A stretch of DNA of 64,000 nucleotides from Phytoseiulus persimilis (lineage: Eukaryota > Arthropoda > Arachnida > Mesostigmata > Phytoseiidae). The translations under genes and the position numbers were made by a program. This document shows positions 13,528 to 53,370 of the stretch, piece after piece (position 1 is the first letter of the stretch; the number at the start of each line of letters is the position of its first letter). The DNA lies in assembly GCA_037576195.1 (NCBI GenBank), contig CM075102.1, positions 18,534,745 through 18,598,744 on the forward strand, given 5' to 3'. The notes below the pieces were generated by a model. That model worked only from the letters and a program-made list of their open reading frames with translations. It had not been told where the DNA came from and did no database searches.

Positions 13528-13572
13528 CTCCACGACACCTCCTGGAATCACATGGAAGTGTTCATATTCGGT

Positions 13573-22487: not shown

Positions 22488-22626
22488 ATGAGGAGCGGAG
22501 CGACGACCCCTTCAAGAGTGAGGCCTTATCCTCGAGCTCTGCAAGATAATCATCCTCTTTATCAAACAGAGCCTGTGCCCGGGAGCCAGGCCCCGCAGCA
22601 GAACACCTCCAACGGGCAGGCTACGG
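22488..22626 (+). CDS. LMO: LMO-A coding exon 1 (N-terminal leader)
   Basis: Opens with ATG at 22488 and encodes 46 residues plus one base, ending at a GTGAGC donor in phase 1. Phase 1 is exactly what the acceptor at 32444 needs. The peptide is Pro/Gln rich and contains LQDNHPLYQ, which parallels PQDSHYYQQ in the LMO-B first exon. Linking it across 9.8 kb of intron is inference; a nearer alternative first exon cannot be excluded. Confidence 0.7.
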
Positions 22627-25600
22627 GTGAGCTCACTTGAGGAATTTTTTCCGTGTTATGCGTCGAAGTAGCTCCAGTCGTTGGTCGAGCTCACCGAGAA
22701 ACTTTTATGCCGAGAGACCGCGAGAACGGTCGCAATCGGCGATGACGTGTTGTTTCCTTGCCTTGTTTTGTGGATGCATGGCTGTCCCCACTGAGCCCGC
22801 CTCGTCGAGAACCATGTGGCGAAAAATATATCTGAGGTGACGGAGCTTCTGGAGGATCAGCAGGAAATTCTGATCCGGACCTGCAACAATTAGCATCTAA
22901 TCCCCGTCATGGACTTTTGGCGGCTGTGCTCCAGCGAGACTCAAAATGGAGGGATTCCCGGAGGTCCTCGTAGAACTCTTCGAGCAAATCCCAAGTTTGG
23001 GAGTGAGCCCGAGCCGGAACTGGGAGAGGAGTGGAATTTCCATCGAGATCCGGTCGACGAGATGTCAAACTCGTTTGAGCTTCGGCGGTCTAACGACTTG
23101 TCAACGAGAAGGAAATCAGGGGATTTTCCGAAATTGCACTGATGGACGCTAGCGGGGACAGCAAGCACGGTGGGGAGAATGTTTGAAAAAGTAAACAACA
23201 TGCAATCAAGTCTCCCTGGAGATCTACTGCAACCTTCTCCTCAAATCCATCCCAGACCCGATGTCCCTTGTCTCCCCCTTCTTCCCGGTTCGTCTCTCTC
23301 CGTCTGCCAGGCCGTTTACCCTGGGCCTTCCTCGTCGCGACTAACGGACTCCAAAGAAAGCAAACGCGGTTTTCGAGCAAGGCCCCGATAAATTCAGACA
23401 AGGTTACAATTCAGCCCAGCGGTGGGGCGCTCGAGAACGTACGAGTGGGACGAAAGCGGAGGGGCCGAGGTCGCATACTTGAACGAGCAGCACTTAGGCG
23501 GCGGAGAGATGATTTAATGAAAACTTTGCATTAACACCTCTCTGAACGAACGAGAAACAAGATGTATCCCTCGTCGCCAACCTGGAGTGGAACACCGCAA
23601 ACTCGTGGTTGCGGGCACTCAAACACATGCACCAACGAGGTCCGGATAGTGCTCTGCGAAAAGTTTCACTCGGAGTTCGTCTGCTGGAACGGAAATTACC
23701 TTGAAAAATCAATAGATGACATCCATGGGTAGGAGAAAGCCCACGAAAATCACTTGGTTGGAAATCGGGCAGCCTGGACCCAATTCAGCGGCCCTGGGGT
23801 TGAGCCTGTGCGCCGCGCGGAGCCTTGTCATATACGAGTTTGGGGGGGGGGGGGGGGAGGGGGGGGGTTCGAACTGTGTTTCTTACGAATCCTGTTCCCT
23901 CGTCAACGCTTTGACCTACCTATCGAGCGTCGATGCGGCCACGGAACCCGCACATGTGGCACAGATGGCTAAATCCACTCGGCTATGTCCTTGACGCGTA
24001 TTTTCAGAAGTTCCGTTCCCCGGATCAGCTGCGAACGTGATCACACCGGATTCTGTGCAGGATAGCCCTCAGCATGTTGCGTTCCTTCGCACCCTTCAAC
24101 GAGTTGTCAGACCATAGAAGAGCGGCGAACGGGGGCGGAAGAGACGGACGAGTTCTGATCGTCAGCCAATCTCGCTTCGATCGGGGATTGATCGACTCCA
24201 TGGAAAGCCGAACTTTGGTAGCTTGCGCCGAAATGGAATCGCTGGGAGACAAGTTTTTCGCATTCCCATCCGACTCACAAATGGAGCGCAACGGCCCTAC
24301 AATGCACGACTCCCGCTCCGTCTCCAACGAGCCGAAGTGACTCTGTCGTGAACAGCGATGTCGCGACCCATTCGGTGATCCCGATCCCAGAACAGGGCCG
24401 AGTTGGGGTCTACGACTCCGATTCTTCTGTGTTGGAGTTTTCCTCATCGACGCTTCCAGCTCGCGCGAACTCCCCGAGCCTTGCGTGAAAAGAAAATGCG
24501 GCAGGTGGATACTTCCGGCGAGACGAGCATCAAACGCGGGAAGACGATAGTGAGATGGGAAGGAGGCCGGGGCTGTCCTTATCGGGGCCCGGTGCACCTT
24601 AACTCTGTTCGGGCTTTTTGAGAGAACAGATGACAATTGTTTTATCTCTGGTGTCGGAATGGCCTCCATCAGATCCTTGCGGAGATAGCGAGAGGGAAAA
24701 TTGTCGCAGTAGAGAGTGACAAAACCCGAGAAGGAGAACCCCGTCGAGGGGCGGGAGAGGACGAGATAGAAATTTGGAGAGATGTATGGACCGAGGAGCA
24801 CAGTGGGAATAACCGGCGCTTATTGGGGCCGCCGAAGATCAAGCTCCTCAAGAAGAGACTCTCACACGTAGTGTCTATCGTCGCGGGAGCCGCTTACCGG
24901 GGACAGCGCGCGGGTGCAAAAGAGGGAAACCCAACGACGCAGACGGCAGCGGAGTGGACGACCGTGCTGGTGATGATACTCAAGATCTCGAGTCACTTGG
25001 TATGTGCGGGCACGCTCGCGCACTTCTTCCACCACTATCAAGGGGTGCTTAACTCTTTAAGAAAAACGCCCTCAAGTAAAACAGTGCGCGGGCTTCTTAG
25101 AGAGACGGCTGTTTCGTCGCCTTGGTAGCTTCTCGTCCAACTCCTATTCCCGTATCCACGTCATGGAGTTTTGAATCTCATGATCCGCTTTTTGTGCATT
25201 GTTTGCATTCCGACTCCGCTCTTTCTGTGGAAACTCCGCCTCAAAACCGAGAGTGAGTTCCATTTGGCTCCAGCTCTGCGCTTCACGCAAGTTCAGCCCT
25301 GATCACGGTATTCATTTTACGGAATAGTCGTTGATTTCGATTATGAGAGACGGATGACAAGGAAAAGTTTTTCGGATTCGAATTCCTCTCACATCGCAAC
25401 CATGTTCTTTGGCGCCTCTGGTTGACGATTTTTCGAAAACATCCTTCTTATATTCACATAAGACGGCCCCATATCCTGTCTGGCGAGCAGCTCACGCTTC
25501 ATTCGCGGTTGACACTACCATCCGTGTACCTGGATGTGCAGCCCCTGAAGACCTCAAAGGATCACAGGTGGATGCTCTTCCGTGACATATGCTCATTTAT

Positions 25601-28600
25601 TCGTGCTCAGGTCGTACCTGACCTTCTGAGCTTCCGGACCTTCCTCCGCAGAGCGGGTTCAAACGACTCCCTCCTGCTCTGGAGAAGAAATGCCCCCGCG
25701 GAAGTATGCGACCGACGGAGGAAGTTAAAGCTTCTTCTCGGTCGACGGCGAATACGAGCCCCATTACTTTCTGTAATTACCAGTGGCTAACCAAATTAAT
25801 GAGAGCAGCGACGATGACTGCTCACTTTCAAACTGACACACTTCATCAAGAGCAGCCCACTAATCCCATGCGCGCAGTCAGCACATTTCCTTCCATCGAA
25901 GCTGCTTTCCCTACCTGATCCCTCTCGTGTATCTGGCCATGCGAGAAGGCTAGCATACAGGCTCGATCGTTACCAACTGCCTCGATTAACGTGAGCCCCG
26001 AGAAGCTACCCGCTTGCTTGCCAGCAACCATCCGCACGTTGACCCAACTACGAGCTACGTGCAACCGGATTCGTTTGGCCAGAATTCCGAAGTCTACGAT
26101 ATATGTACCGCTGAGCGTGAGCCGTACAGTTGCATCGGGGAGGCCAGCTGAAGGGGAAGAAAGGAGTCTGAAGAGAGGTTGGCATATGCAAGGAAGCCAC
26201 TCCGTTCGGAGTTTGGCTCAAATGTAGAAGAAGAGGAGTCTGACCGAAGCCTCTTTCAGTTTGGGCAGCCCAATCATTAACGAAGTTTTTGTGCTATGTA
26301 AACCGCTTGCAGCTCGCGTGGCTTCGTACCGGAGGGCTCCGTCCTCCCGCACAAAGTGTCATTAGGGAAACGGAGAACGAAAGAGAAACAGCCATACATT
26401 CTCATCATCTTTCTTGACGTCGGGAAAAATTTGAATTTCTCCCTCTGCTCGAACGTGGTTGCGATATGTTCTCTCGTTTCTGATCTGAGAGTCGGTGTAC
26501 CACATTTCCGAACGAGGCGTTAGGACTATCCTCATGCGAATAGCCGCAATTAAGAATGATAGTTCGCTCTCAACTGCCGAGTCTTCTAGCTCGAAAAACG
26601 TTCGGCGGCGTCGTTGCTCAACATCAACAGCCATGAGGCGATTGAGAAAAATTCATGCAGAAGCCGGAATTCCGAGATCAGAGAATTGCTCACTCATTAT
26701 GATCATGGAGGCCCCATCTTCCTGGAGGAATTCGTCGGCCAGCCCGGAAGGTAGAACGATGTTTGGCCGAAGCTCCGGGACATGGTTCCGATGAGACCCC
26801 GACAGAACGAGACCACGGATCCGCGGTCGTTGGATCGGATGATTGAATTGCTGCAGCACGGAAGAAACGGAGCTGTGTATCATCTGCACGTCCGTCGCTG
26901 CATTAGTGGGAAGCAACACGCTACTCACCGCTAATTTAGCTTCAATCGGATTGGCAGATGACTCGCCGATATTAACCAGGCCTTCCCGTCCAATTTAGCT
27001 GCAATTGCACTCCGAGCTCGCAGTGTTGGTGGCTGCTGAAGAATGCCGTCGCCGATCGGGGAATGCAGTTGCTAGACGCCGGCAACTGGTTCGCGGTTAA
27101 TGATCGCAGAGCGCGATCCCTGATTCATAGTTTTCGCGATCACATCAACCGAGCGATACCACCAACAGAAGGATCTGTGAGGCAGCAGAAATTCACGGGA
27201 AGAGAGGGGTCAGCTGGGATGCGGACGATCTCGATGGGATAACGAGGCAGCAGAACCGAGGGATGTGCAGAGTCTTACGTTCAGTAGTTATTTTTTTCCT
27301 GCTCCGCGCCGACGCACCGCCGCAGATGTTGCTGGCCTGTTTCGCGAGTGTTGTAGGTGGCACCTCTTGTCTGTGGTACCACACGCGAATCTCCAAGTGG
27401 TACCACTGCGGTGCACGGACCGCCTCGACCAACCCATCGCCTCGTCGCTCGATTGGAAGATAAAGTCTCGTCGAGTCTCTATTTTAGAGGAGCGATGTCT
27501 CCTGTAACTGGAGGAGAATTTGTTCTGTCAGTTGGGAAATCAGGGATCTTCCAAGTCCCATCGAGTGATTTCTTGGAGTTCGCATTGCTCATGCGCTTTG
27601 AGTCCAGCTGCGTTTCGTGTGCGTGGGTATCTTTTCTCTCGCTGGAGCAGATCTAGTCTCGCTCTCGATCTGTGTTCGCTGACCAGCGATGAGGGCTGCG
27701 GCAGCGGCATTTCCTTATCTCGACGAAACCCCGCGCGGACCGTGTTTGATGCAAATATATCGACTTCGCTTCTTTTTAGAATCGTATCATCTCCCTTGTG
27801 GCCGCTTCGACTTCCTCGTGGACGTTTTTTCATCATTCGCAGAGGCATTCTATGCGAGCACAATCAAACAAACTTCTGATGTCGAGGCTGAGAAGGAATC
27901 CCAGGATGGAAATAGTTATCTCCCCACCCGAGTCTCGCAGCGGTTTTGATCGGAGAGTTCCGAAGGACTTGAAATTTCTCGAGGAGAGGAGGGTTCTCTC
28001 TGAATTTTCTCGCTCAGCATTCCATTCGGCACAGTGCGTCGAACGGAGTTCTGTGTCTACGATGTGACAGATCGGCTCTCTTAGTGGGGCTGGTATGATG
28101 GCTCCGTGATGGGTTCGAGATCGGCTTCAAGCTGCGAGAGTAGACATCGCGTCCATCAAAAGTTAGCCGTTATCGTCGCTTTTCAGCTGAATGGTCAACC
28201 GGTGGCCGAGGTGGTTTTTCTCCATCCCTATCCGTTCGGCTCATTGGTCGGCTCTAGCTGGCGGTCGAGCGAGCGAGCGAGCGCGCGCGCGCGGTTTGCT
28301 ACTTGTTATCACTTCACTGACGGGCTGCTGGACGGACACTTACGGCCGGAAGTCATGAGGATGGTTGCTCCGAAAGGAATTCTCACCCGGATGCGCTCTA
28401 CCCTTATCGGACTCGCGCTCGTTAGAGCGAGGGAAGAAAGAGCGTAGGGCTAGCGGGCAGGGCTGGTCGGCGAATAGAACCCCAGCGATGGAAATCTGCA
28501 AAACCACACTGCAAACCATTGCGTCTTCCAGTTCTCGGCGGCTCAGTTCTGCCTCGTCCGACGCTCTACGACACACGAGCTCACCCACGTTCTCGACAAG

Positions 28601-31600
28601 ATCGCAGAACGCATGATTCACACCGGAATTCGCCATTCCCGATTTCGAGGGGTCAAACAAGCGCAGCACCAGAGACGCACATTCCGGCCGGAGGTCGGAT
28701 CAAGGATAGAGCGGGAAGGAGAGCAGCTGGGGCGAAAAACGCGACGCCATCGCGAAAGGAAAAGAGAAACTCAAAACGGAATCATTTTTCGCCGGAGGTG
28801 AGGGCGGCAGCAGCAGAGGTGCTGGTGGACTGGTGTCAATTTTCGTCGCGTCAAATGATTGATCAAGTTCGATGATAGATAAGAAAAGAAGAGACGGGAC
28901 GAGAGATTTTCCTGAAGCGTTCTCACTCAATTTCCTCCCCGGCGTCCGGGATCGCTGACAACTCCCGCACGCCTGGCTCAGAATGAACACTCCGTTCGCT
29001 CGTGCCTCTTTTCTCGGTCATTCCCCCCACTCTCCGTAACTTCGTTTCTCTCAGAGCGAGTCCCGCGCAAATTTTATTCGAAAATTGAAACCGATTGAAG
29101 ATTCCTTTGACAGATTACTTCTCGTCGACGATGATGGCGACGACCATGAGGAATGAAACGATGACGACGACGACCGAGTGTTGGAGGGAAAAAATAGCGC
29201 GAAAGTGTCGAGCAAATACCTTCAACTTGGATTGGATTTCGGGATCCGAGCGAACATTTCTCCGGCACCGATCCATCGTGGGAGGCTTCCCGTGTTTGAA
29301 GGGAAATGAACGAGCGCAAACCTCCCCCCTCGCCTCTGGATTTGGAGACGCCGGACCTGCACTGGTCAACTTGGGGTCAGTGGGATTCGGAAATCCATGG
29401 CAGAACAACGAGAGAAGAAAGTTGTATCCCCGTATATTGGCAGGGCTCGGCTTCGATCGCGTATAACGATCCAGCGTTCAACCGAGCGAGCAGGATCATT
29501 AGAACCGCAACGAAATCCGCTAAATGGTGGAGGGCATTAGAATGCGGCAAACAGCAGCGAGTCCTGTTATCTGTGAACCAATTTCCTGAAGCGGGCACTC
29601 GAAACCAAAAGTGGGATTTGAAGGGGCCTCATTCGCAGCAAAACTGTTGGAATTTCCTCGAAGTTTCACTGTTTCGGAACATTCAAACTTTTTGAAACCG
29701 AAAGCACAGCAATGATGCGCGAATGCCGAACCCAGCCAGCCCGACCTTGTTTCCGAACTCTTGAGAACTCAAGGAATCAGCGTCGACGCCCGCAAGAAGC
29801 AAAGTTGTCAGTAGCCTTGATGTGACGACCGATCAACATCTGTAACACAGTCGAAAACTCTGCCCAGGGAGCGGCTGTCGGCTTTGGACTCTCCGCTTTG
29901 GAGCTTCCGCCACCGGCTTGTTGCTCCCGCTAAACCGTCGGATTTGTTTGGCGCCTCGCAGCACCGTTAGCAGTCAGTATGTTCCTCCGCGCACCGACGA
30001 CGACGAAGAAGGAGAAGAAGAAGAAGAACGGATTCACCTAGCGCTTCTCGTCCAAGAAGCTGCTGTAATGGCTGACTCTTCCCAGGAGCTTGCCCGCCGG
30101 CCCAGGGACTACGGATGGCCTCATCTCATTAGAATATCTCCTTCGTTGTTGAGCTCATCTGCATTCGAGTCGTCACCACCTCACCGATAGCGGTGGTGGT
30201 GGCGGTGTCGGCTACGGGTCGAACGTGGCTCACTGGCCTGCTTTATTTCTCCCTCTTCGTTTCTCTATCTATTTATCTGTCTCTCTCCTCGTGGAGCTCT
30301 TGGCGACAGACGGACAGACGGGGTGGCCGACAGGAGAGCTCAATAGACACTAATTCCCAGCTGTAGCTTGGGGAATCAATTGATTTTCGCGTAATCAAAT
30401 CTTCAGCGCTAACTTTGAACTCCGGGCAAAGAGACCTGGCCCGCCCGTGAATCCGTGCCTGTGCGCCCCGTTTCTCGACGTCTTCTTCGGGACGGGGAAC
30501 CTAGTTATTCAGTTGAACTTTTGACTCTTGCTCGCGATTCTGTTTGGTACCATCCTCTGAAGTGATTCTCTCTGTACTGTGACATTCTCGCCTTGTTTCG
30601 GGTCTCGTCACTCCGGGTCCGATTCCTCTGGATTTTCAGTTCTCCACCTGGTTCCCCACGATATCTCCTACGAAATCCGCGCCGGATTCCGAGTTTTCCG
30701 AGGCGGTGCCGCGGGCGGTCGGGGAGCCTCAGCGCTCGGTCCTGAACTCGTCCGGGGTGTCTTCCCGTGAGTGAAGTAGGTCATTATTGGAGAAAAAATT
30801 AGACTCGAGGGTGACTCCAAGGTGATCGGGTGCTCGGCAAAATACAACATCTGCGGATTGGGTGTCTCCGGCGGGTGAACATCTTGCGTGCCTCAGCGTT
30901 ATTGGACAAGCATTAATCACCGCGTGCGGAGACATGAGATAGAAAAAATTAAGCTCCGAACCGGCAGTACGTCGAACAAGTCGCTGTTTGGCTAGTCGAA
31001 TGTTCGAGTGAGCCGAGGAACAACCTGCTGGTGATTGCATTTGTGTCAGGGCAACTTAGGCTCCGACGTCGAATTATGATCGTTAGCTCACACTATGAAA
31101 CTCGAACTTTGCTTGTCGCTGGCCCGTTCGGCTGCTTCGCTTATGAGAAAGAAAACATCGGCAGGGGAGGAAAGTGCTTTTTGTGATGCGAGTCGAAACT
31201 TCTCAGGTTTGCCCGAAGCTCGACTGGCGGCATCAGAAACCCCCGAGGCATTGCTTCCATCTGCAATTATGTGTGTTCGAGAAAGAAAAATAGGCATCGG
31301 ACCATTCCCCCTCCCTCCCCCCTCTTGTCTAGAATATCCTGGTCCAGTTCGATGCATGGGCGACTGTTTCATGTCAGGGGGCAAACAGGCTTTCCGAGAA
31401 CCAGCCGCAATGTCGAGTCCGTCGGATGCAGTAAGATTCAAGAACGCCCTCTTCCATGCGCAAGCGATGAAAAGAGCATCCCGCCCCGAATCGACATCGA
31501 GGATATTTCTTACAGTCAACTTGAGACTCGTTCCCTCCAAGAAACCAACCAATCAGAGAACGAGTCAATCTCACGTTGAGTTTGAACGGAGTTTATCCCT

Positions 31601-34600
31601 GAAATAGGCGACTTCTTTGTCGACGCATACCATAACAGAGGCCGAGAGATAGCCCGACGATGAAGACCGTCGGCAATCTTTCATTCTTATCTCCTATTAA
31701 AGGCAGCTGGTCGAGCGAGTCTCTTCAACAGTCGTTGGACACGAAGAAGAACAACAGAGGAAGAAGGGAAGGAGGGTAGTCGGTGGGAGGACGGCAGGGG
31801 GAGCCATAGAGGAAGCCTACCGGCTAGAGATTCCCTTAATCTAAATATTATACGCCGATTCATGCCTCCAGATATCGTATCTTCGACCACGTCTTCAGCC
31901 ACAAGTGAACCCGAGTAGAGCCCCTTGCACAGTCTCGTCGTCGACTCGTAAGCGAAGCTTCGCATCGCTTCTCCCCCTTCTGGTCAGGGAGGAATGAGCC
32001 GTCATGGAACTCACACTCGTTGTTCGCGAGCTCACTCATCGACATCGCCGCATTTGACACGCGATTCTCCCGCAAGACGCTGCTCTCGAGCGAGTGTGAG
32101 GATAGAAGGGCTCTCGCACTCTGAGCAAGTTATTGATTGAATATTCGAACGTTCAGCTCACATCCAGGATTATCCCATTCGACGGGAAGTCAATCAAACT
32201 ACTAATCGGCGAAAATTTTCCGAGAAACTTAGTGAGGACAACGTTGAGAGCCCGGAACCGCAACGCAATTCCTCAGCCACTCCTTGATAGATGGGATCAA
32301 ACAGAGCCGACGTTCCAGGATTCCCATAGTGAAAATGCATCTGTCGAATCGCTCGGCAGCTATCAGGGAACGACAACACTTGAAATAATGAGTTGATCAG
32401 TGGAATCCGGAATGTCCTTAACGATCATTTCGTTTTGTTGCAGGCTGCGCGGTTGGGATGGGTCGGAAGATGAAATCAGGCAGACGTTCCCAAAACTCGT
32501 GCACAATGGCCCTCAATCCGAGTAGTTCTGTTCTGATGGGATCCAGCTCCGATGGAGTTTCTCAAGCGCCCTCGAACGTTCAGAACGGATCGCAACCCGA
32601 ATGTGCCGGATGCCAAAAACCTATTAGAGAGAGGTAAGCGTCGTTTAATTCAGAGGAGATTTTCCGACTGTTCACCACAATCTACCTCGATTGCGTTTTT
32701 GTAAAGAGTCTTCGTCGCTTAGAGTCCCCACCTGGCTTGAATTATTTTTGGTTATTTTTGGCTTGGTTATTTTTGGCTTGAATTCGATGGAAATTTTTTC
32801 CAAATCCTTCCCTACAGTCTGTTTACTCTCGTGGCAGGTACTTGTTACGGGCCCTGGATCAGCTATGGCACGAAGATTGTTTGAAGTGTGCGTGTTGCGA
32901 CTGTCGTCTTGGAGAAGTGGGATCAACGCTTTTCCACAAAGCGAATCTGATTCTCTGCAAGCGGGATTACCTCAGGTCAGTTCAACGGGAAGTTCATGAT
33001 CAAGACTCGACTCGTAGAGCTGTTGGACACCTTCCCGTCGAAGCGACGGGGAGGGAGAGAGATAGGAGGTAGGACTCTGATTCCTTTCCAATAGAGTAGA
33101 AGGAGCAGTTCAGCCTCAGATGATCAGGGCTCGCCGCTTCCGACGGCTGCGATGTCCCGGAGCTCGCTCAGGAGCTTGCAGCCCTCACAGGTTGAGACGC
33201 AAGTTGCCTTCATCGCACGTTTGGCTCCCTGAAACGGCTGTGAAAATCCCCGAAGACCCTGGTCTCAGATCCACCCCAGCCACCTACGGAAGTCCAGCCG
33301 CTATGCCATAAACATGAAGTGCTCCGACGTATGGGGTCATAACAGTTTCCTGTAGTCGATTCCCTCATGGCCGAGTAAAAGTCACGTAACTCCCGCACGA
33401 GCTAAGAACATTCGCCCAAAAATCCTGCTCCATGGAACGCGTGTTGGCAAATCGATTCTCCTTTCCGTCTCTGCTGAGGATGGGCGATCGAGAACCGGTC
33501 TTGCTCTACTCAGCCCGCGACGACCGGGGGAACGTGATGCGACTCCGGATGTTGTCCAGCCTAATATTTTGAAATCGCTGTTCCCTTAAAATTCCTAACA
33601 CTCCTTGAAAATCTGAATCGTTGATCGGAGAAAGCTCTGAAAATGAGTATCTCTCCAGATATCTCAATCCAACGTTGTGCTAGAATCGCCAGAAGAATAT
33701 GGTTTTCGCTGATCTCTAGCCATCTGAAAACTCCTATGCACCATGGGATTTGGAAGAAATTAAATCGAAACAATAGCTAAGCGGCACTTGTTTGCGGAGG
33801 TCCTCGATTAGCACGATCGGAGGACTTCTTGGTCGCCCATCCTGAGTTTCTCATCCCAGATGGTTCAATGACATCCATGAAATTACGATTCCTTTCCTAT
33901 GATGCGACTCTTTCGGGATTCGAGGCTGTTCCCGACATATAAGAACTGGAGGAGAGGGAAATATTCGGGCATGCCTTTTTGTCATAGAGACCCGGCTGAG
34001 AAACTGCTCCCAAAACGACTAGAATCAGATTCGGCGGTGTTATGAGGATTCCGACCCCAGAAAAGTGCCCATTCGGGCCGACCCCTCCCCCCATTGGACC
34101 CGTAGACAGGAGCCGACCAGGAAATTACTCGGAATATCAAGACGTCCCCGAAAATGTTCTAGGAGCCCGCAGAGGTGGTACGAAGCCGAGGCGGAGTTTC
34201 CTACGCGGTTCCTCGTTTATGTCGTATCGCGATCGCACCCGTTCGCAGAATTCAACCCGAGGAATGAGGTGACTAGCTCCAAAGTCAATCGCCTATTTAA
34301 TTTGCTGCAAATTCACTTGGGCGCAGCTCAGAGTTCCGCGAATTTCGTGGCTTTTGGCAAATCTTCGAATTTCAACCAAGAAAGGAAAAAATACCTCACC
34401 AGCTGCCAACAACCGCGACTTTACGACCTGGACAACAATTTTTCCCGCAGCAGCGGCTGTGTGCATTGGTATATGAATGTGGCTCTTGGATGGGCGAGAT
34501 TTCTCGATCGCGCGTCACTTTTTACAGCTGAGCTCAGATTCGTATTCGTAGAGTCCGAGAAGAGCCTAGTGGGGTTCTCTATTTTGAAATTCCAACTTGA

Positions 34601-36715
34601 AGCCACGCGCCTGCGTGAAAACCGAGATATATGGCACGCACGACAGAACTCTCATAGCTTCCAGGCGTCAGAGGATGCATCCCAACGTGGGAGACGGAAA
34701 CGAACGTAGCTCACCCTAACTGATTTCTTCGCCGAACCTACAGGTTGTTCGGTGTGACCGGTCTATGCTCAGCCTGTCACAAACAGATTCCGGCATTCGA
34801 AATGGTCATGCGGGCCAGAGGCAACGTTTACCATCTCGAGTGTTTCGCTTGCCAGCAGTGTAACCACCGGTAAGTCAGCGCTGGAGACCCAGAAAGGCTC
34901 AGAAGTCGTCGCTTCGGATCGATCAGGAATCGGATGACTACGAATTCTCTCGTCGAGACAGCTCAGGGCTTGGTGGAAGGCCAACATTTCGCACCGCGAG
35001 CTGGCGGGGACTCTTGACTGCTTCGCGGGAATGGCGATTCCGCGGGATCGAGCCTGCAACTGACTGACTCATGAAATACTTGCTGAACGGAGTTGGCTTG
35101 GGGCGGTCGGAGAGTTGAGCAACAAATAGAGCAGCGAACATTTTGAACAATGACATGAACAAAAGTTTTCAACTCGTTAGCAAAGCGTCTAACTCAATTA
35201 GGATCGTCGTTAAGCTCTTCAAAGTGTCGTTGGTAACATACGAGGTTTACTACTCGCAGCAGTCGACGGGGGGTGAATCGGGAGGGTCAGTGGGAGAAGA
35301 AAAAGAAGGGCGGCGTGAAGTTCGAGGGAAGCGTAAACAGCCAAAGAGTGTGAGACTGGTGATCTATGACTGTGAGTATAGAGGTTGTAGAAACGGATTG
35401 AGTAGAGCTTGTGCGAGCGGGAAAAAGTGAGAGCGGCCTCTGAGCGGAGAGGAAAAGTGACGCGACAAGAATAATAGGTTCATTGATTATCGCACTAGGT
35501 CGGTCGCAACGCTGCTTGGTTGAATTGCAGTAGCCAGCAGTCAGTGACAATAATCTGGGCCATATGTTGCTTTCGTTTCCGCGATGTCGGTCGTTGTTGG
35601 TATCGTTTCGAGTTGGGGGATGAGGGGGGAAGGTGGATGCTCGGCGCTTTGTGAGTGGGTGGCTGGGAGGGAGGCTGAACAAATCAAGTTACAACGGCGA
35701 CCATGGGGGCGACGAAACCAGCTCCTCCATTCGAGGAGCGAGGAGAAACAAGGGGGAGGGAGGAACAAAAGAGACAAAGATGCGCGCGGAGACTTGGACA
35801 GCAGTACTAAGACAGATCGATGTTTCGTTGCAGTTTCTGTGTCGGAGATCGCTTCTATCTCCATGAGAACCGAATTCTTTGCGAGTATGATTACGAAGAA
35901 CGCATGGTGTTCTCCCAGATGGGCGGCCAGTATCCGATCCAAGGCGCCGCTCCACCTATGCAGCAGCACCCGCCACACCATCACCACCATCAGCAGCAGC
36001 CGCAGCAGCAACCCGGCTCGCCATACTCGATGAACGGAACCCATACCCCCACCCATCACCCTCATCAAGGATCGTCGATGATGCCTCTGACCCCTCCTCA
36101 GCAGCAACAGTCCCTTGACAGATCTCCTCTGACAACTGCTCATCACAAACAGCGAACTAATCAGCAGCAAGGCAATCCACAAGCTCCATCGCAAGGTCAA
36201 ACAGGTAGGTTCCAGCGATTCTGGAAAATATCTTCGGGCAAACGCTGCATGCTCGTATGCCCTCATCTTCCGATTCCCATATTCCTCCAAATCAGCTGAG
36301 TCACGGCGCAGCTGTCACCGATCCTCCTAACACCACGTTCCCTCAATGTCCTCCTGAAGACCCTCGCTGATAGGACTCCGATATTCAATAACTCTGATAT
36401 CGAGGGAAGGTGCCATGAGTCTTTGGGACATCTCTACTGGTAGAAAACGAAAGAGCGACATTCAGTTTCCTCAAGGCAACTAGACTTTAGAATTCCGATG
36501 AGCTAGGACGGAATCGAGGACGGGGAGTGCGTGATGAACGCACGCTTCGTAGCGAGCGCAAAACTGAGCAATCCAGGGCGCGTTTTTTTGCAGGCACGCC
36601 TGGCGCACCGACTCAACCCGAGGGCGATATCCTATTTGACGTAACTTCAAATGGATCGACAGTGGCCGGAACTCCTCAGGGTTCTCAGAACCCCGGAAGC
36701 AACAGCGGGAAGTGA
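22488..36715 (+). CDS. LMO: LMO-A: LIM-domain-only transcription cofactor (rhombotin/Beadex type), six coding exons
   Basis: Nuclear adaptor protein. LMO proteins do not bind DNA; they bridge LDB1/Chip and bHLH, GATA or LIM-homeodomain factors. Coding exons are 22488-22626, 32444-32633, 32838-32975, 34744-34869, 35834-36204 and 36594-36715. They total 1,086 nt (361 codons plus stop) with every junction in phase. Residues 1-46 are a Pro/Gln-rich leader. LIM1 has zinc ligands C100, C103, H121, C124 / C127, C130, C150, D153. LIM2 has C164, C167, H186, C189 / C192, C195, C214, D217. Residues about 220-361 form a Gln/His/Pro-rich tail. Vertebrate LMO1-3 are only about 145-165 aa, so the tail is an extension. 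The distal first exon is inferred from phase and from its resemblance to the LMO-B leader. The neighbour LMO-B points toward it from the other strand. Confidence 0.92.
23842..23867 (+). repeat. G-rich tract (G16, A, G9)
   Basis: Simple G run abutting the B box of the 23.9-kb tRNA-like element; the C-rich run on the opposite strand. Confidence 0.85.
23842..23990 (-). repeat. tRNA-like SINE candidate
   Basis: On the - strand an A-box-like TAGCCGAGTGGATTTAGCC (23985-23967) is followed about 100 nt later by a B-box-like GTTCGAACCCC (around 23874-23864) and a C-rich run interrupted once. The box spacing is too large for a normal tRNA, and the 5' and 3' ends do not pair as an acceptor stem. Confidence 0.35.
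26362..27000 (-). pseudogene. Possible decayed coding fragment inside LMO-A intron 1
   Basis: Two consecutive - strand frames (about 26998-26653 and 26634-26362) lie in the same phase with one TGA between them. Together they make roughly 200 codons. The first part contains [20 protein letters not shown], the second opens with ATG and [20 protein letters not shown] one-base shift near 26362 prolongs the open frame further. No splice signals remove the stop. I read it as a broken gene fragment, or chance; the family is not recognised. Confidence 0.25.
32444..32633 (+). CDS. LMO: LMO-A coding exon 2 (linker and start of LIM1)
   Basis: Acceptor TTGTTGCAG at 32435-32443, donor GTAAGC at 32634. 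It encodes a basic Ser-rich linker, then the first two LIM1 zinc ligands (CAGC) and stops inside an Arg codon before YLLRALD. An in-frame ATG at 32458 could serve as a shorter start (310 aa) if exon 1 is not used. Confidence 0.9.
32737..32782 (+). repeat. Short tandem repeat in LMO-A intron
   Basis: GGTTATTTTTGGCTT-type units repeated about three times in the 204-nt intron that splits LIM1. Confidence 0.7.
32838..32975 (+). CDS. LMO: LMO-A coding exon 3 (rest of LIM1)
   Basis: Carries [13 protein letters not shown] and the conserved RLGEVGSTL, and ends at DYLR in phase 2 with a GTCAGT donor. It completes all eight zinc ligands of LIM1. The intron before it, 204 nt, is absent from LMO-B. Confidence 0.95.
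34744..34869 (+). CDS. LMO: LMO-A coding exon 4 (first half of LIM2)
   Basis: Begins after CTACAG and ends at GTAAGT. It encodes [26 protein letters not shown] and NHR. At 126 nt it is the same length and phase (2 to 2) as the matching LMO-B exon. Confidence 0.95.
35834..36204 (+). CDS. LMO: LMO-A coding exon 5 (end of LIM2 and Gln/His tail)
   Basis: Starts with FCVGDRFYL and contains the last zinc ligands in [10 protein letters not shown]. It then runs into a low-complexity tail of Gln, His and Pro (runs of five His and several three-Gln blocks), ending at a GTAGGT donor. The antisense frame is also open here for about 250 codons; that is a shadow of this exon. Confidence 0.93.
36594..36715 (+). 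CDS. LMO: LMO-A last coding exon
   Basis: Follows a TTTTTTTGCAG acceptor, continues the Gly/Thr/Pro/Ser-rich tail in frame and ends with TGA at 36713-36715. The phase 1 junction with exon 5 gives a clean Thr-Gly join. Confidence 0.88.
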
Positions 36716-37156
36716 TTTGACGATCGACGAACTCTGAAGGGAAGCGACGGATCGGATCTCTCATTGTAGATCCTCATTTTTTGCAGTTTGTCGTGTTGAA
36801 ACTTGTGTTCAGGAAGGTTCAAGTTCCCTACGCTCATGTTCGAATAGGAAAAAGTCGAGGGAAGTCCACCGTTGAAGCCAAATGGATGTTTTCCGAGGTC
36901 CAGTCATGCAACAGCTCTCCTTGAGCTGGAAATTCTTGTAAATACTCCATGCGGGAGCCCATGATCCACATCTCGTTTCTGTAAACATTTTCGGAAGAGC
37001 GCACTTTCGCATTTACATATTAGCCTCTCGAAAATGCTCCCGTCGTCGAAAGCGGAGATAACTGAGTGATAACAAAAATCTGTAATTGCGTTTTGTGTGA
37101 GTTGACAATATTGTGATCGAGTTCTGCGAAGAAACATTCGGAAAGAGTCATTTGAA

Positions 37157-37162
37157 AATAAA
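37157..37162 (+). terminator. Candidate polyA signal for LMO-A
   Basis: AATAAA 442 nt after the LMO-A stop and the first canonical hexamer I found downstream. The cleavage site is not determined. Confidence 0.4.
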
Positions 37163-37479
37163 CCGATGATGCAAATCGATCTGAGCACTGATTTTCATTG
37201 TGGTTCAACTCAACCCGATGGCTGAATTTCGCTAGATGAATCATGACCAGTCTGACCGCTGTCGATGTACACATGAGAACGATTCGTACCAGGGCATGGC
37301 CTCCAAGCCGAAGGTGCGGAACGAGGGGAACAGGGAATTCCCACAGCAGCTGACACTTCCTGAAGGATTACGAGGGTCGCTCGTGGACTTCGCTTAGCTC
37401 TGGAGGGGTCCTGGCACCGCAGTCCGTTATTTACCCTCGCTGCCCTACCCTTGAAGATATTTTTCTGGTCGTTCCTGGT

Positions 37480-38541: not shown

Positions 38542-38547
38542 TTTATT
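38542..38547 (-). terminator. Candidate polyA signal for LMO-B
   Basis: AATAAA on the - strand 130 nt after the LMO-B stop. Confidence 0.5.
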
Positions 38548-38676
38548 CTAAACCATTCCATTAGATCTGAGCTGCGTTAACCTACGTTGTCATATTTACA
38601 AAACTCAGCACATATTCAGCAAAAAGATTGCGTTCGTTGGATCACAAATCAGGGAAGCCTCTACGGTTTCGATGCG

Positions 38677-38767
38677 CTAAGCTCCAGTCGAATAATACAA
38701 CGGGCTGTAGTCATCTTCGCAGAGAATCCGATTATTATGGAGATAAAAACGATCGCCGACGCAAAAC
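38677..38767 (-). CDS. LMO: LMO-B last coding exon
   Basis: Follows GCGTTGCAG and encodes [29 protein letters not shown] and a TAG stop. The 120-nt intron before it matches the LMO-A intron position. Confidence 0.93.
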
Positions 38768-41700
38768 CTGCAACGCAGAAGAATCATTCAATCCTCCCAC
38801 CGAGCGTCCTGGAGTCTACCACGACTGACATTACCGATCGAAACTACCCAGTCTTCAATTAAGCATGCGAAACAGTTTTCTACGAACCTATGATTGCACT
38901 GTTGACAAGCGAAACACTCGAGGTGGTAAACGTTGCTACGAGCTCTCATCACCATCTCGAAAGAAGGTATCGTTTTGTGGCACGCGGAGCACAGTCCAGC
39001 CGTCCCGTAGATCCTGCGGGAGAAACAGGGCGTTAGGGATATAGTGTCCCGGAATTCATGTTTTACATCCGCGTTCTCCAGATCGGTCCACGTTCTCGGA
39101 GATCGAATGCTGTTCGCACATTCGGCCAATCGAGGGGGAGGCAGCCTTTGTTTCGATGTCTGAACGTTCTTAGGAAGGAGAGGAGAAGCCGGGAAAAAAC
39201 ACCTCTTTTCACGCGCGATGGAAGCTGAACGCGGGAGGTGATTCTACAAAAACTTGTAAATGGCTGCCGTCCAATGCCTATTAAGCCGCTCAAGCCAGCG
39301 GGGAAAGTACGCCATGTCAGCAGAAATATCTCATAGGGAAATATCCTTTCTGTCCCTCCACTTTCCCGCAATGCTCGTAGTCGTCGTCGTCTCCGCCGCC
39401 GCCACCACCTCCTCCCTTCGGGTTCTTGCGCCCGCGTCGGCAACTCTCGAACGAACATTTGCAAATTTTCAAAAGGGCAAAAGTGCAAAGCGGATTCGGT
39501 GCTCAAGTATTCAAATCGTAAACCCAGCGGACGGAGCGTGGAATACATTGTGAAGATAATCGTCGGCTGTGTTGAAAAAAATTCAGCCTAATCCCTGGCT
39601 TGCTGGATCTGGTCAGCGCACGAACTGACTCATAGATCAACTGGCTGCGTGACTGACCAACCAATAAACTTCAAGACCAAAGCAAACTCAGCGCTGGGTC
39701 CTCGGTCGTGGATCGCGACGATTTCCATCTGCCTAGCATTCGCGAAACTGACGCCCGAGTCCAGCGGGTCTCGACGCTCTCGTTGGAGTTCGATGACACT
39801 TTAAAATGCAGAGAATGGAGTTTCGCATTCGTTGCATTCCTCGTGAGATTCTGAAACTCGATTCGCGAATGTCAAGGGTCAAGGAGCGAGCGCCGAGAGG
39901 AAACAGACTTTACGGAGTGTCGTCAGCGGAGCCGGAATTCTCCCTATAAATCCGGATACAAGGTATCGGGTTGAACACATAGCAGTTCTCGCTCACAATC
40001 CGGCTCGTCGAATCGTTTGGTTTGCCGAAGTGCTACCGTCGATCCGGTCGGATCACATCTTGCAGAGTATGTGGGAGCAGGGCGGTATCACCATCCAAAC
40101 TTTGAATGAACAGCACATATAGCGGCGTTTAATGGTTTTACTGCAACCTTCATTACAAGGAAGCCCACCGGGGCATTTCAGCTCACGCATTGGAGAGATC
40201 CGAGGGATAGATGAAGACTCGCGTGCAAGAGATGGCATGGAAGGAGTGCTAGTGTGGCCTCGTCGCTCGCAGAATCACTGCGTTCGGGTTCGGAAGAACA
40301 TTCGATGCGAATTAGAGACACGACACGCGACTGCCGCGTAGAGGCTTCCTTGGACGGGATGCAGGGTGGAGGCGAGCAGATATGTGCCAGACAACCGACT
40401 CTGCGGAGGAAATTGAGCCCGCAATTGTATCGAATCCGAATTGTTTTACAACGGCCGCGTCCCGGGGTAGCTTCACACGATTTGCTCGCGGTCCTGGCAC
40501 CACGATGTCCTGGCGAGGAGAGCAACGGCGACCTCGCTACGATCATGGTGGACCGCGTGTCGCAGGTTGTGTACGCGGTGCGTACGAAACCCTCTCGCCT
40601 GATGTGCAGCGTCAAGCCTACTTGTTAGCTAGTCCAAAGTCGGCTAATGAATGATTCGATGAAGGCGGTCGCCTCGAGCCGTGACGGCCAGTTCCAGCAA
40701 TATCGTAATGCGTTTATCTATTTAGTTCCAAATCGCTCGATTGATGTTCATTTCGATGTCGAATCAGTTTTGAGTGCTGCAGCCCCCTCCCGCTGACTGA
40801 CAATGAGGGTCGTACTGTTGTATCTGGCTTCATTTGCTCATTGTTGCAGGTTCACCTGGCCGGGCGGGCGGCTCCGTTTCCGCTCGCTCGATGTGCGCCC
40901 GAACGGAGCTGGCCGGGTGACCAAACCGTCACTTTGTCCTTCTATCACGAACATTCGACATCATCGAGCTCGACAAAAGAGCAATGAGAGAGGTTGTGCC
41001 TAGCGCACCCACTGGCCCTGCGGCCGCAGAGCCGGTCTTGTAGGAGCTTCTTGCTGCAGGATCATCAGCCTGGGAAGCCGATACAGAGACCGTCAAGCGG
41101 TCATTGAAAACAGTCATTGAAAACTTCAGGAGTACTTTTCCCTCGTCGTTTCCCTATGAGCCCGCGCTCGGAAGGCGAACGGCTTAAGTGCTTATATGGC
41201 GCGGCCTTATGACAGCACGGCCAGCAACCATAAAATAATGTTTAACTTCCTTTCCCAGGAGGAGCGGAGCAAGGGCCGAAGAAAGGACCACTGGACGCGC
41301 TGGATAGGACCTGCATGGGAGTTTACAACAAGCACGTGGGCAATCATTCGCTTTCGGAGGAGAAATCGCTTTGGCGGTGAGGGTGATGTAATGGGCAGAG
41401 TGAAGTGAAAAAATGGGGAGGAGAACAGCCACCCCCCCCCCTGATTCTGCCTCGAGTAGCAACGTTGTAGATCCCTGCATCGCAGGTACTCGACTCGTCC
41501 GACCTTGCCTCGACGGCCCCCACGGAGGAAACTCGACATGATCCACCGCAGGCTATCTAGACCAGTCCACTGACCTTAAATAATCTCGTCGACAGAGGAT
41601 GAGGTTGTTTTTGAAATACAGCGTGGAGCCGACCTCTCCTAGGCGACAGTCACAGCTCCCGCACTTCAGGCAGTCCTCATGCCACATTTTGTCCAGAGCG

Positions 41701-44700
41701 CAGAGCAGATATCGATCTTTGATGGAATTCTGACACCCGGCGCAGGTCGGTCGCGATTCCGAGAAAAGCGATGGGGGGATGTTGAGACCGTTCAGGTTGT
41801 TCGCAACATTGTCGTTGTCCAGACTGTTGCCGTCCACAGGCAAGGCGTCGCCGGTTGGCGCCCGGACGATGATCGTCGCTCCGGTGGGAAGCGACGGAGA
41901 GGACTGAGGCCTCCTTGGCTTCGTCTTCCTGATGGGTCCGATCGTATCTTCCCGCCGGTCACAATCTGCAAGAGAAGCGGAGAGATCGCTTAGCTAGCAT
42001 CCCGAGTGAACTTTTGCATTTCATCGCTCCTCGTTGGCTGATCGGTCGACTCCTTCTGAGTCAAATCGAGCTCGGACATTCGTTTGTGCAGACGAATGCC
42101 TTGATCAGCCGTGGCGGGAACACGTCTGGCCGCGGGTGGCAGCGACCAATATTATTGACAGAGGGGGCAAATGTTGCTAAGAGAGCCCAAACACTGCTGT
42201 ATCGGGGCAACGCTTCCCTCTATTGCTCTTCATTGTTCTCTACGGCGCTCGAGCCGTCGCTCAGTTTTCCCACCCGCCCCGCGTCGCCGACCGGTCCACC
42301 GACTGACTGACTGGCTCACTCGGTCGTCGTAATAATCATGAAACGGCTCACCCCGAGTAATAAGCCGGGCGTCTGCTGGGATTGCCAGGACCGCCGAACA
42401 CGCCCCTATCAGGTCAGAAAAAAACCCAAGCAGAACATCACTAATCGCCTCGCTCCAGCACTCATGGTCTATATGATCATGGTGTGTTTATCAAGGGTAA
42501 CGGCCACTCGCGGTCCGGTGGAGGGCAAGCCAAAGGTCGGTAAGCTGAGGCAGATGGAGGCGGGCCGCAACGATCGAAGGCAGAAGCGCACCCCTTCCTC
42601 GGCCGCGAATATAAATGACCGTTCAGAACAGATCAGTCAGCTCTTCCGTCTCGCTTGCGGTCTGAGGAGAACGAGCTGCGCTGGCGAAGGTACTTCCGCT
42701 TCTCCTCCACACGCCGCGAATCCCACTCAGCCTCCACCCGTGCTTCTCCGGTTGCCATCGAGAGGGTTAATGGCGAATTTCCCAATTTCATAGACGATCA
42801 GGTTCAGCCGTTCCGTTGCAGTATAGTCTCGTCCCTCTGATCTTTCCCACGTTCTGAGGCGCTGCATGTCATGAAGTTCCCGGAATGATTGAGGTATGAT
42901 ACCCAAATGGATCGGAAATCTGTCGGAGCTGGCACAATAAACATGACCTCGTCATCGCTGAATCCCTCCGTCGCCGAGCGGAGCACCAGCGTCGAGGCTC
43001 AAATGTTCGATTCGGGTTCGACAACTCTGAACAAGTCGGACTTTGAATGCTTGTATTATTTGTTCCGTTGTCAGCTCGCCGCTCGGGACGCTCAAGTGGC
43101 CCGAGACAGGACTTCAACGCAACTGGGGTGATCTTATGGAGTCCGACGACGATTTTGGAGCTTGCTGAAAGTTTTCTCAAGCAGCGGCGAAGAACCGAAC
43201 TCTGTCCGTCGCCGACATAAGTTGGAGCGACGTGGAAGCCGAACGAGAAATGGGATAAACTCTGACACTTGGCAGCCGGTCGGCCGACCAGCCGGCCGGC
43301 TGCCCGGGCGGTGAGATGCTTTCAACACACAGTGCTGGAAAAATAAAAACTGCCCCCTGAGCTAATAAAGTGCTTGATGCTAACTTGGCTCGACTTCCGC
43401 CGATGGGATTTAACTCCTCTTTCTGTTTCCCCCGGCAGTCGCTTTCCGACGCTCACTCGCGCACTCAGCTTTGCTTTTGCTCGGGTTCTTCGTCGAAAGT
43501 GCCCTGCCTCGCTCCTCGCGCTCTCTATCAATCTCTCGGTCCGTCAAATGTTTCGGTGTTTGTCCTCAAATTCGTTCCTCACAACTCCGGGCTCGTTTTT
43601 CGGGAAGTGCTCATCGCTTCCCCACGCCCTCAAGAGAAATCAAAGCGGGTTTGGCCGTCACGATCCCCAGTACTAATTGTCAGCTCTCGAGCGGTACCTA
43701 CAAAAGCTTAAGGACCCACCGACGAGGTCCTATGAGCGACAAGACTCCGTCACGTTGGTCAGATCGCCGTCATAGCTGTAAGTGCACTCTGTATCAGGCT
43801 CTACGTCCTGGATCTGTCCACTCAAACAAGCATCGTTGGGCGCCAATTAGGAAAAATCTCATTGGCTGAATCTGGAGTCGAGAGAGGTATCCGCAATCCT
43901 CGCTGACTCCCTATCCGCCGCCGTAGCTCGTTGCTCGGACTCACTCCAAGTGCCTCGGGCGATCCATTATTTACTTTGAATGAGAGGGTGAGTGGGAATA
44001 GGCTTAACTAATTAGTCCACTTGAAATAGATAGAAGCTTAAGAGAATTTCAAACAGGCCGCGCTGCTCGTCGTCCCGGCCATCAACGAGGGAAGGGCCCA
44101 GCGCTCTCTGGCCTGTCTTTCTTGCCCTCATTCAAGTCCTCGTACTCATCCCTCCGATCGGTTCCCTCGTTTGAAATGGGTGAATATTGCACTGGACACG
44201 AAACCCTACAAGTGGACTCCTGAGGATTCGGACAGATGGACTGGGCGGAAGATAGAGCGCACAAGAGGGCGAGCGTCATGTTATTATTCTTGAAGCCTCT
44301 CAGGACATCCCCACAGGAGGCTTCGGCACAAGACTTGTCTATTTGCCGCTGTAAGAAAGAGTCCGTACCGGGCTTCACGCGGAGTCGGTTCATGAACGAG
44401 GCTCAAAACTCATCTTCATTGGCGGGAGCATCTCGCCATTCACCTACGCTCTATTCTCAGGTGCCAAATGGAATTCACAGACATTGGAGTACGGATCGAC
44501 CTCGAGGTTTCATCCTCTGTCATATCAACTTCTGGAGGAGGCCGGAAGTCAGAGGTCTTAGGGTTTGCGGCTCTTGCGGGACCGCTGCCCAGGATTCGCC
44601 ACGCCTCTAGTGTCCATGGTCCAATATCAACTATTCATTGGAAAAATCGGTTATCGAGGCTTCATACAACACAAGAGTCCGGGGGCGCACCTGCAATGCC

Positions 44701-50700: not shown

Positions 50701-53370
50701 ATTCCAACCGGAAACGAAGAGCCCCGTATGGAACATTTCTCGGGTCTTCTCTAGATATCCAACGGATCACGATCCGTTCGAAATGCCCCTCTGGATCAAT
50801 GGTTTTCGTTCTCCTCCCTCCACCCCGATCCGACTGAGAGAGCTCAACAAGGCGCTAGCACTCCAGGCGTTGGTTGAGAACAAGATCGTAAACGCTACTG
50901 GTGATCGCGGAGCTGCTGCTGGGGCTGTTGACGACGCACAGACAGAGTTGACGTTGAGAATACATACATAACATTAACAATAACACAACATAAGTATTCA
51001 TCGGCACGTCCTCCGTTAGACACTCTTTTATGACCGGCTATAACTCCCCATTAGGGCGAACGCAGTCGGGAAGGATCGGAGCGGATCACATCAGCAGCCC
51101 CGTGCAACATTCGATTCGACTCAATTCTCCCGACGATCGCCCATTCGTTCTCGCACTAGTTGGCTCTCCCGTTTTTGTTTGTTTGGATACTGCCACCACC
51201 ATTGCTCCTCTGACTACTGAGCTCCCACAAAAAAGCGCTGATATCCGATCGAGTTCGATACGAACAAAGTTCTAGCGGTGGAAGGATGCGCGGTCACCGT
51301 TCTGGGAATGTAATTGACGCCTCCCACGCACTGCACCGTTACAATCTCACTCGATCAACAAGTTCGCACCTCGAGTCGCAGAGCACATGCTTTCAGTGGC
51401 GTAGCCAGGATTTCCCCTGGGGGGGGGGGGAGAATTTTTTTCCCGTCCGGCCGCCTTCCACGCATTCTGTACCACCCCGAAGAGACCCCCTCCCCCCTTC
51501 ATCTCTCAAACTGATCCACAAAATCTATCTGTCTCTGTTTTCGGCTGAACCTCTCAGCCAGCCCTCAGGAGTGTCCCGGATTCACCTTTCGGTATTGCTT
51601 CAGTAACACTCCCTATCGCCTCGCAAATCCCATTGCGGGCGGTGGGCTTGGGTCTTAAGATGGTTCAGATTTAATTCTGATATAAATTAAATCCTCTTTT
51701 TACCACATAAGAAATTTGCTGTGAAAATCTATCTGTCTATGGACTCCATTGAGAACGCTAGGACCGCCTTGTCGACAACAATGATAGAGCAACGTACATA
51801 ATAAAGCTCAGAAGCGAGGCGTCGAGGTTTCCCCCATGTGATTTAGGATCGATGGTCTTATTTGATCGCCTCCACAACAGTATACTATACATTGATCGGT
51901 TTTGAATGGCTACAGATCCGGAATTTGTTTCGAAAACTCGCCTGAGATACTATGAGCTCGAAAGTTCGGAAGGGGGGAGAGGGGGGGGGGGAGCCTAAAG
52001 CCTGCTCAGCCCCCTTGGCTATGCCAATGCGCGATTTTCTCAGGATTCACTCCGAGAATAACCCAGTCGGAACTCCGGTCTCTTGAGGTGCACATTCACG
52101 CCTTGTTTACGACTTCAGAAGCACATTCGGAAAGGCAGAATGAGATGAACGATTCAATACGCAGATGTAATCGGGACGTTCGAAACGAGAAACGGTCGGG
52201 AGATGAAATAAAGCGCTGCGTGGTCAGGAGCGGCAGTCGCAGCCTTCGAGCGCAGCTGACCGGGCGGCTGGCCGGCTCCGGACTGGGATGATGTCTCCTG
52301 GGAGTCTTGATTGAATGTTTACCTTTTTCTCCAAAGCTCACTGTGGTTGAGAAACGAGTCTTCAACGTCCGAACCAAGGAAGCCTCCATTTTGTCTCCAT
52401 GGCTGCATTCTCTTGAATCCTTACTTCGTTCATCGCCCATGCACTCCGAAGACTGCTTCCTCGTTTATTAAGAAAAGGAGGACGAAACATGCTCTGCGGT
52501 GCCTGTTCATCAGGCCCGCGAAGCCGCCGCTCATCGACTTCTCGATGTTTTCCCGGTTTCTGTCAAACTGTTCTTCTTACTCTGGGCATGGGGGCAGATG
52601 CCAATGTGCAGAAACACGCGGTTCTAAGTTCTTATTTAAAAATTGATCATTTCGCCGTGTTAACCCTGAGCAAAACGCGCCCGCATCCGACGGCGCAGGA
52701 GCACATCTGCGAGGCGCTCCGTCCCAAGACGTCGATCCCTCAGCTGTACGTTTTAGGGTGCAAATTTCCGCTGCTGTCAACAGAATCACCCGGGCACTTA
52801 GCTCCTAATTAAGAGGCAGCGCGTCGGTCACCGAGTACGTCAATGTCGCTCGCTCGCCCGTTTTGTCGGACAGACAGTCAGTCGGCCGATGGAACCGTCA
52901 GTCGGCCGGAGAGCTTGATACAATCGTAAACGCGGATCGCATCGGACCGGATCAAACGTGTTTTTTTTTGGCTCTCCAGTCACCAGTGGTCACCAGGCTG
53001 AGAGGATCCGCTGAGCCGGCCTCATCCATTAACGATTGCAAGACACTGTGACAAATCGGGCCAGTTCAACGCCAGGCATCGAGTATGTGCTGCCGATCTC
53101 GATTTTCCACAGGCGACGGAACAGGGAGATTCGATCACTCCGAGCTCCAATCGAAGAGTCATTTGGAATTCTGTTGAACCGAATATTATCGATCGCACCA
53201 CATGAAAACTCACCAGACGGCATCGTAGAGTCCGGCTGATTTTGAGCACCAGTCATGATAGATTGTTCGCTTTCGTGTCTCGCGAGTTGCGGTTGCTGAT
53301 AGTAATGACTATCCTGAGGGGTCCGTTGTCCTGAGCTGACGGGAGAAGACAAGAGTACACTGCTTCCCAT
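38677..53370 (-). CDS. LMO: LMO-B: second LIM-domain-only cofactor, four coding exons, convergent with LMO-A
   Basis: Paralogue of LMO-A on the opposite strand, with the same inferred nuclear scaffold role. Coding exons in transcript order are 53370-53214, 41965-41575, 39013-38888 and 38767-38677. They total 765 nt (254 aa plus stop) with all phases consistent. Residues 1-52 are a Ser/Gln/Pro-rich leader, followed by a basic Pro/Ser linker. LIM1 ligands are C127, C130, H148, C151 / C154, C157, C177, D180. LIM2 ligands are C191, C194, H213, C216 / C219, C222, C241, D244. The protein ends ten residues after the last ligand, so it has no long tail, unlike LMO-A. The exon beginning at 41965 has no Met before LIM1, so an upstream exon is required. 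The exon at 53.2-53.4 kb fits by phase and composition. Confidence 0.9.
38888..39013 (-). CDS. LMO: LMO-B coding exon 3 (first half of LIM2)
   Basis: Acceptor TTTCTCCCGCAG, donor GTTCGT. It encodes [13 protein letters not shown] through CNHR. It is 126 nt long, identical in length and phase to LMO-A exon 4. Confidence 0.95.
41575..41965 (-). CDS. LMO: LMO-B coding exon 2 (linker and complete LIM1)
   Basis: Acceptor CTTCTCTTGCAG, donor GTCAGT. It encodes a basic, Pro/Ser-rich linker and then the whole of LIM1, from [14 protein letters not shown] to ILCRRDYLR. The intron that splits LIM1 in LMO-A is missing. Confidence 0.95.
41966..53213 (-). other. LMO-B intron 1 (11.2 kb)
   Basis: Inferred from phase. 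Contains the terminal-inverted-repeat element and a GT microsatellite near 49690. Several long but unsupported + strand frames also occur here (46439-47152, 49676-50599). Large first introns of developmental regulators often hold enhancers. Confidence 0.6.
51394..52029. mobile_element. Non-autonomous DNA transposon-like element with imperfect terminal inverted repeats
   Basis: Left end CAGTGGCGTAGCCAGG and right end CCTTGGCTATGCCAATG are inverted copies with a few mismatches. Both ends are flanked inside by G/C-rich runs (12 G at the left, 10 G near the right). The interior, about 600 bp, has no long ORF. Ends of the CAGTGGCGTAGCCA kind are common on cut-and-paste elements of invertebrates. 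I see no clear target-site duplication, so it is probably old. It sits in intron 1 of LMO-B. Confidence 0.55.
53214..53370 (-). CDS. LMO: LMO-B coding exon 1 (N-terminal leader)
   Basis: Starts at ATG 53370 (a CTCAG acceptor-like site 5 nt upstream suggests a separate 5' UTR exon). It encodes 52 residues rich in Ser, Gln and Pro and ends in phase 1 at GTGAGT. The next exon needs exactly one base to make Asp before CDRRED. The 11.2-kb intron is inference from phase. Confidence 0.72.

Follow-up and report, generated by a model that had tools for sequence, protein, structure and literature searches.

The closest described systems include the fly Lmo gene (Beadex). Its product, dLMO, is described as competing with Apterous for CHIP (PMC2921152), and over-expression alleles (Bx) as disturbing the wing margin (PMC2921152; PMC529317). 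The gene is further reported to begin with alternative exons, separated by an intron of some 30 kb, and one of them adds 71 N-terminal residues (PMC529317); Drosophila is credited with two LMO proteins in all (PMC3305314). The titles and abstract openings that we searched, with most subscription papers outside that scope, describe no tail-to-tail LMO pair.

Here we present such a pair, found in a window of 64,000 nucleotides (C2:18534745-18598744) from an assembly of 181 Mb in 127 contigs, the bulk of which is held by four large contigs of 54.7, 52.0, 38.9 and 28.1 Mb. Models rebuilt from the sequence gave two intact LIM-only genes lying tail to tail, A on the forward strand and B on the reverse strand. 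Their stop codons, at 36715 (+) and 38677 (-), are 1,961 bp apart, in agreement with the spacing of about 2 kb given in a first-pass annotation of this DNA. That annotation had also proposed two convergent LMO paralogues, and the models bear out both the orientation and the relationship, the two genes belonging to the same LMO1/2/3 class. With the candidate leader exons counted, A comprises six coding exons (361 aa) and B four (254 aa). We consider it likely that A and B are intact LMO1/2/3 cofactor genes, the outcome of an old duplication in a family of at least three such members and one LMO4-like gene, and that they divide the job between them. The exons are listed below with positions in the window, a slash marking the splice junction.

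22488..22626, + strand: candidate leader exon of A, ending in phase 1, donor CGG/GTGAGC, one of six candidates on the A side
32444..32633, + strand: coding exon 2 of A, a Ser/Gln-rich stretch and the start of LIM1, ending RE/R in phase 2
32838..32975, + strand: coding exon 3 of A, the remainder of LIM1, RYLL...DYL/R, phase 2, LIM match
34744..34869, + strand: coding exon 4 of A, the first part of LIM2, ending CNH/R in phase 2, LIM match
35834..36204, + strand: coding exon 5 of A, the end of LIM2 and a His/Gln/Pro-rich tail
36594..36715, + strand: last coding exon of A, stop TGA
53370..53214, - strand: candidate leader exon of B, ending in phase 1, donor CTG/GTGAGT, one of three candidates on the B side
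41965..41575, - strand: coding exon 2 of B, an N-terminal stretch without counterpart in A and the entire LIM1, LIM match
39013..38888, - strand: coding exon 3 of B, the first part of LIM2, LIM match
38767..38677, - strand: last coding exon of B, the end of LIM2, a short tail and stop TAG

The two LIM introns previously described as common to A and B in position and phase were recovered as DYL/R and CNH/R, both in phase 2. The mirror-image architecture claimed for the pair is only approximate: the LIM introns are indeed shared, but A has six coding exons against four, and exon 2 of B lacks the additional RE/RYLL intron of A. The tails differ as well, being long and rich in His, Gln and Pro in A and almost absent in B.

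Searches against Pfam gave LIM alone for both proteins, in two stretches each, with no homeodomain and no other family. Read by eye from the translations, the zinc ligands are complete in A and B, following the LIM pattern (C-x2-C, H-x2-C, C-x2-C, C-x2-D per LIM). In a search of solved structures LMO2 was the best match for both proteins with E of about 1e-45 (157.7 bits for A, 159.1 bits for B), and LMO4 came second (149.2 and 150.8 bits). This gap of about 8 bits supports A and B as members of the LMO1/2/3 (rhombotin) class, and so does an intron, CN[HL]/R, present in both and in a gene C but absent in a gene D (C and D are presented below). Placement of the two proteins in distant LMO classes had been named beforehand as evidence against the first-pass reading of the pair; what we found was LMO2 as best match for each. 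The gene pair is real, and it is a known kind of gene and a moderately interesting case.

A protein search of the same genome with the LIM region of A as query gave 32 matches. The strongest beyond A and B were three exons at C2:49.32 Mb, and they belong to a third LMO1/2/3-class gene, C (C2:49324382-49326120, + strand), which lies 31 Mb from A and B, is modelled with six coding exons and 193 aa, and was overlooked by the first-pass annotation. Among the weaker matches two exons on C3 represent an LMO4-like gene, D, which had LMO4 as its best solved-structure match and in the tree fell with LMO4 and outside the other three genes (support 99-100). At least four LMO genes (A-D) are thereby found in one genome, twice the number of LMO proteins that Drosophila is reported to have (PMC3305314). 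To the left of A we observed two long single-exon ORFs on the reverse strand (window positions 2328-3107 and 12919-13572), one of them coiled-coil-like by eye. Neither these two nor an ORF beside C gave any Pfam match above cut-off, and no relatives were detected in the prokaryote genome collection, as expected.

The intron positions in C and D change the account of how A and B arose, as an inverted duplication, or long-kept convergent linkage, had earlier been read in part from the shared introns. The DY[LV]/R intron (phase 2) is common to A, B, C and D, while CN[HL]/R (phase 2) is common to A, B and C, D having GD/R there. Since C has both introns and D has one, they are ancestral and older than the A/B split. 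Shared introns as proof of sisterhood were hence rejected, and the duplication story is corrected in that such introns alone cannot carry a sister-pair claim. Near the start of LIM1, A and C have a phase-2 intron at R/Y that B lacks. In D there is a splice acceptor exactly at the R/Y place and frame, the match being to the acceptor side of that intron. Most simply, it seems that B has lost this intron. The R/Y intron of C has an apparent GC donor, AAAG/GCGAGT (at C2:49324619-49324631), and A uses GTAAGC.

Over the 119 residues of the LIM region the identities are 102 for A-C, 97 for A-B and 89 for B-C, and each protein is identical to LMO2 at 69. It follows that A is nearer to C than to B, which weakens the earlier reading of an inverted duplication. 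Fourfold sites differ at 22/32 between A and B, 24/33 between A and C and 20/30 between B and C, which is near saturation. Together with the conserved protein this makes A, B and C old copies kept by selection on the protein. A recent inverted duplication was ruled out, with 22 of the 32 fourfold sites different and no noncoding similarity left.

Maximum likelihood with six sequences joined A and C at a support of 86 (ultrafast bootstrap), A+C being preferred over A+B by 5.0 log units, and the AU test gave 0.92 for A+C, 0.133 for A+B and 0.064 for B+C. When provisional LMO1, LMO3 and Beadex sequences were added, A and C were still joined (support 70), and 6 of the 7 topologies were left unrejected by the AU test, including in the test of A-Beadex orthology. 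The branching of A, B and C therefore only leans to A+C, with A+B not rejected, and by identity and maximum likelihood the data prefer the distant gene C as the closest relative of A found in the genome. Of the sites where A equals C and not B, 10/14 lie in LIM1, and 6/9 of those where A equals B and not C lie in LIM2. A conversion of LIM1 between genes A and C was considered and rejected (Fisher p = 0.10), the fourfold sites being without sign of recent exchange.

These data bear on whether A and B are sisters by a single local inverted duplication, C having split off earlier. Adjacency and opposite orientation are what such an origin would give, and the A+B tree survives with the p-AU given above, but the higher A-C identity and the log units and support in favour of A+C speak for another branching. 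The individual sites are divided: A equals B and not C at nine, three of which (columns 93, 102 and 111) match the provisional Beadex and not the provisional LMO1/LMO3, against 14 where A equals C and not B, again with three (columns 6, 52 and 114) matching the provisional Beadex and not the provisional LMO1/LMO3. With three agreeing sites on each side, the Beadex sequence favours neither A+B nor A+C. The R/Y intron, found in A and C and not in B, also counts against sisterhood, although its loss in B would explain the pattern.

To look for traces of the event itself we compared the two halves of the window, positions 1-37700 against the remainder turned to its reverse complement, both as nucleotides and as ORFs no shorter than 35 aa (for these, E <= 0.001). 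The nucleotide comparison returned the LIM exons only, plus one 15-base match at E 2.9, and the ORF comparison only the LIM exons and their antisense shadows. Thus the window halves showed no inverted copy of noncoding or flanking sequence, a result that decay may account for, and the missing flanks are a further point against the sister pair. As C is at least as close to A as B is, a simple mirror-image duplication of A and B is not established. We regard the single local duplication as a possible origin, though less likely than not.

If genes were placed evenly at random in the genome, the chance of any of the 3 pairs falling within 31 kb would be about 0.001. The linkage is hence improbable by chance and has to be explained by past events: the copies either arose by duplication on the spot or stayed linked from earlier on. 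The second case could be an ancient tandem LMO array of A, B and perhaps C, older than the mites, from which C left by rearrangement while shared regulatory DNA kept A and B linked. The near-saturated silent sites indicate old copies as this requires, and the three class members found are all on one chromosome; yet the two sides have no noncoding sequence in common, and the fly has just two LMO proteins in all, as far as reported (PMC3305314). We regard such an array as possible, though also less likely than not.

The array would also fit a genome in which linkage persists for A and B while Antp-like homeodomains are scattered. Such matches (84-97% identity) were found at six places, megabases apart on C1, C2 and C4, and the Hox complement is seemingly dispersed. 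This is akin to the dispersed Hox genes described for the predatory mite Metaseiulus occidentalis, unlike the Hox cluster reported for Neoseiulus cucumeris, and both species are given three chromosomes where we see four large contigs (PMC6902594).

Another LIM-family pair in this genome raises the question of whether tail-to-tail arrangement is specific to LMO genes. Two Lim1-like LIM-homeodomain genes lie tail to tail at C1:5710469-5796393 and form a second convergent LIM-family pair, with LIM identities of 49/55 and 61/63. As several homeodomain neighbours are convergent too, convergence might be usual for duplicated regulatory genes throughout the genome, with nothing specific to LMO. Counting by eye, in seven families and among the matches listed, opposite-strand neighbours of the same family within 100 kb, we obtained 7 convergent, a figure that covers the LMO pair and one weak pair, against 6 divergent (p = 1.0). 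A general convergent bias is not borne out by this count, with the scope just given, and we find such a tendency the least probable of the explanations considered. The two best homeodomain matches of the genome, C3:30750430 (+) and C3:30765658 (-), face each other at a distance of about 15 kb. On the same contig a P450 run lies on the reverse strand (C3:29158442-29214439), where three members among the matches listed are spaced 13.1 kb apart with identical scores; it is apparently a recent tandem array.

The 5' ends of A and B were approached by scanning for an ATG whose frame stays open for 25 codons or more and reaches a GTRAG donor in phase 1, in 18000-32443 for A and 58000-41966 for B, the opposite strands serving as control. 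We found 6 candidates on the A side and 3 on the B side; the respective controls gave 6 and 4. The leader exons proposed previously do end in phase 1 with good donors, but such candidates are no commoner than on the opposite strands. The first introns, claimed to be about 10-11 kb, measure 9,817 bp in A and 11,248 bp in B, values that hold only if the candidate leaders are right. The frame of the A leader stays open beyond 22488 in the upstream direction, where 22287 offers another ATG. The similarity between the two leaders was not significant, 631 of 5000 shuffles scoring at least as high as observed, and their homology is not supported on this ground. The proposed leader of C likewise ends in phase 1 and is a candidate to be read with the same caution. 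As the translation of B exon 2 has no Met ahead of LIM1, B needs some upstream exon. With distant alternative first exons in fly Lmo, the leader idea is plausible by analogy for both A and B.

For the 3' ends we searched both strands between the stops of A and B for four poly(A) hexamers, and a single match was found on each strand:

37157..37162, + strand: AATAAA, probable poly(A) signal of A, the sole match among the four hexamers on this strand
38542..38547, - strand: AATAAA, probable poly(A) signal of B, the sole match among the four hexamers on this strand

These signals place the predicted 3' ends about 1.4 kb apart and do not suggest the overlapping 3' transcripts proposed in the earlier annotation; overlap of A and B transcripts is possible, though nothing in the sequence points to it. 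Sites for the miR-9 seed were absent between the stops on either strand.

Two of the three class members have remained, or have come to be, convergent neighbours, and the third is 31 Mb off on the same chromosome. As to function, we infer that each protein would be a LIM-only cofactor that binds the LIM-interaction domain of the LDB/Chip adaptor through its two LIM domains. An LDB/Chip-type sequence is present in the genome, LIM_bind matching at C2:46245095 (58.8 bits) and C2:44340767 (31.9 bits). Once bound, A and B may drive LIM-homeodomain proteins off the adaptor or serve as a bridge between other DNA-binding proteins, and the outcome would be a dose-dependent tuning of LIM-code transcription. 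The copies probably share out this task in two ways: they would be expressed differently, by virtue of separate 5' ends and large first introns, and they would differ in action through their unlike N- and C-terminal parts, A with its long His/Gln/Pro tail and B with almost none. The short tail and different N-terminal part of B suggest other partners or a different stability. Further, we speculate that A and B might form an ancient convergent LMO block, kept long in arachnids by shared regulatory DNA, in which the relative dose sets the LIM-code output and of which the Lim1-like pair would be a second instance, but we think this unlikely. If the pair proves conserved, it would be a compact natural case of a dosage-sensitive cofactor family that was expanded and kept linked, in contrast to the Hox-like genes scattered in the same genome.

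Compared with known systems, A and B resemble the LMO1/2/3 class, fly Lmo/Beadex included, in having two LIM domains without a homeodomain and, for both, the 69/119 residues identical to LMO2. The tie to Beadex itself is tentative, drawn from a provisional sequence and from the published fly work. The candidate distant first exons are a further likeness to fly Lmo (PMC529317), whereas three LMO1/2/3 members are found here as against two LMO proteins in total reported for the fly (PMC3305314). They also differ from the class in that two members are convergent neighbours and that B is without one intron and without the long C-terminal tail. LMO4 has the same two-LIM layout, and its relative here, gene D, shows both the DY[LV]/R intron and the splice acceptor at the R/Y place, but A and B score about 8 bits better against LMO2, and the third LIM intron of D is GD/R where A and B have CNH/R. 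Lastly, the Lim1-like pair is, like A and B, made up of two paralogues tail to tail; unlike them, its members are LIM-homeodomain genes with LIM domains more alike than those of A and B, and about 38 kb separate the homeodomain matches.
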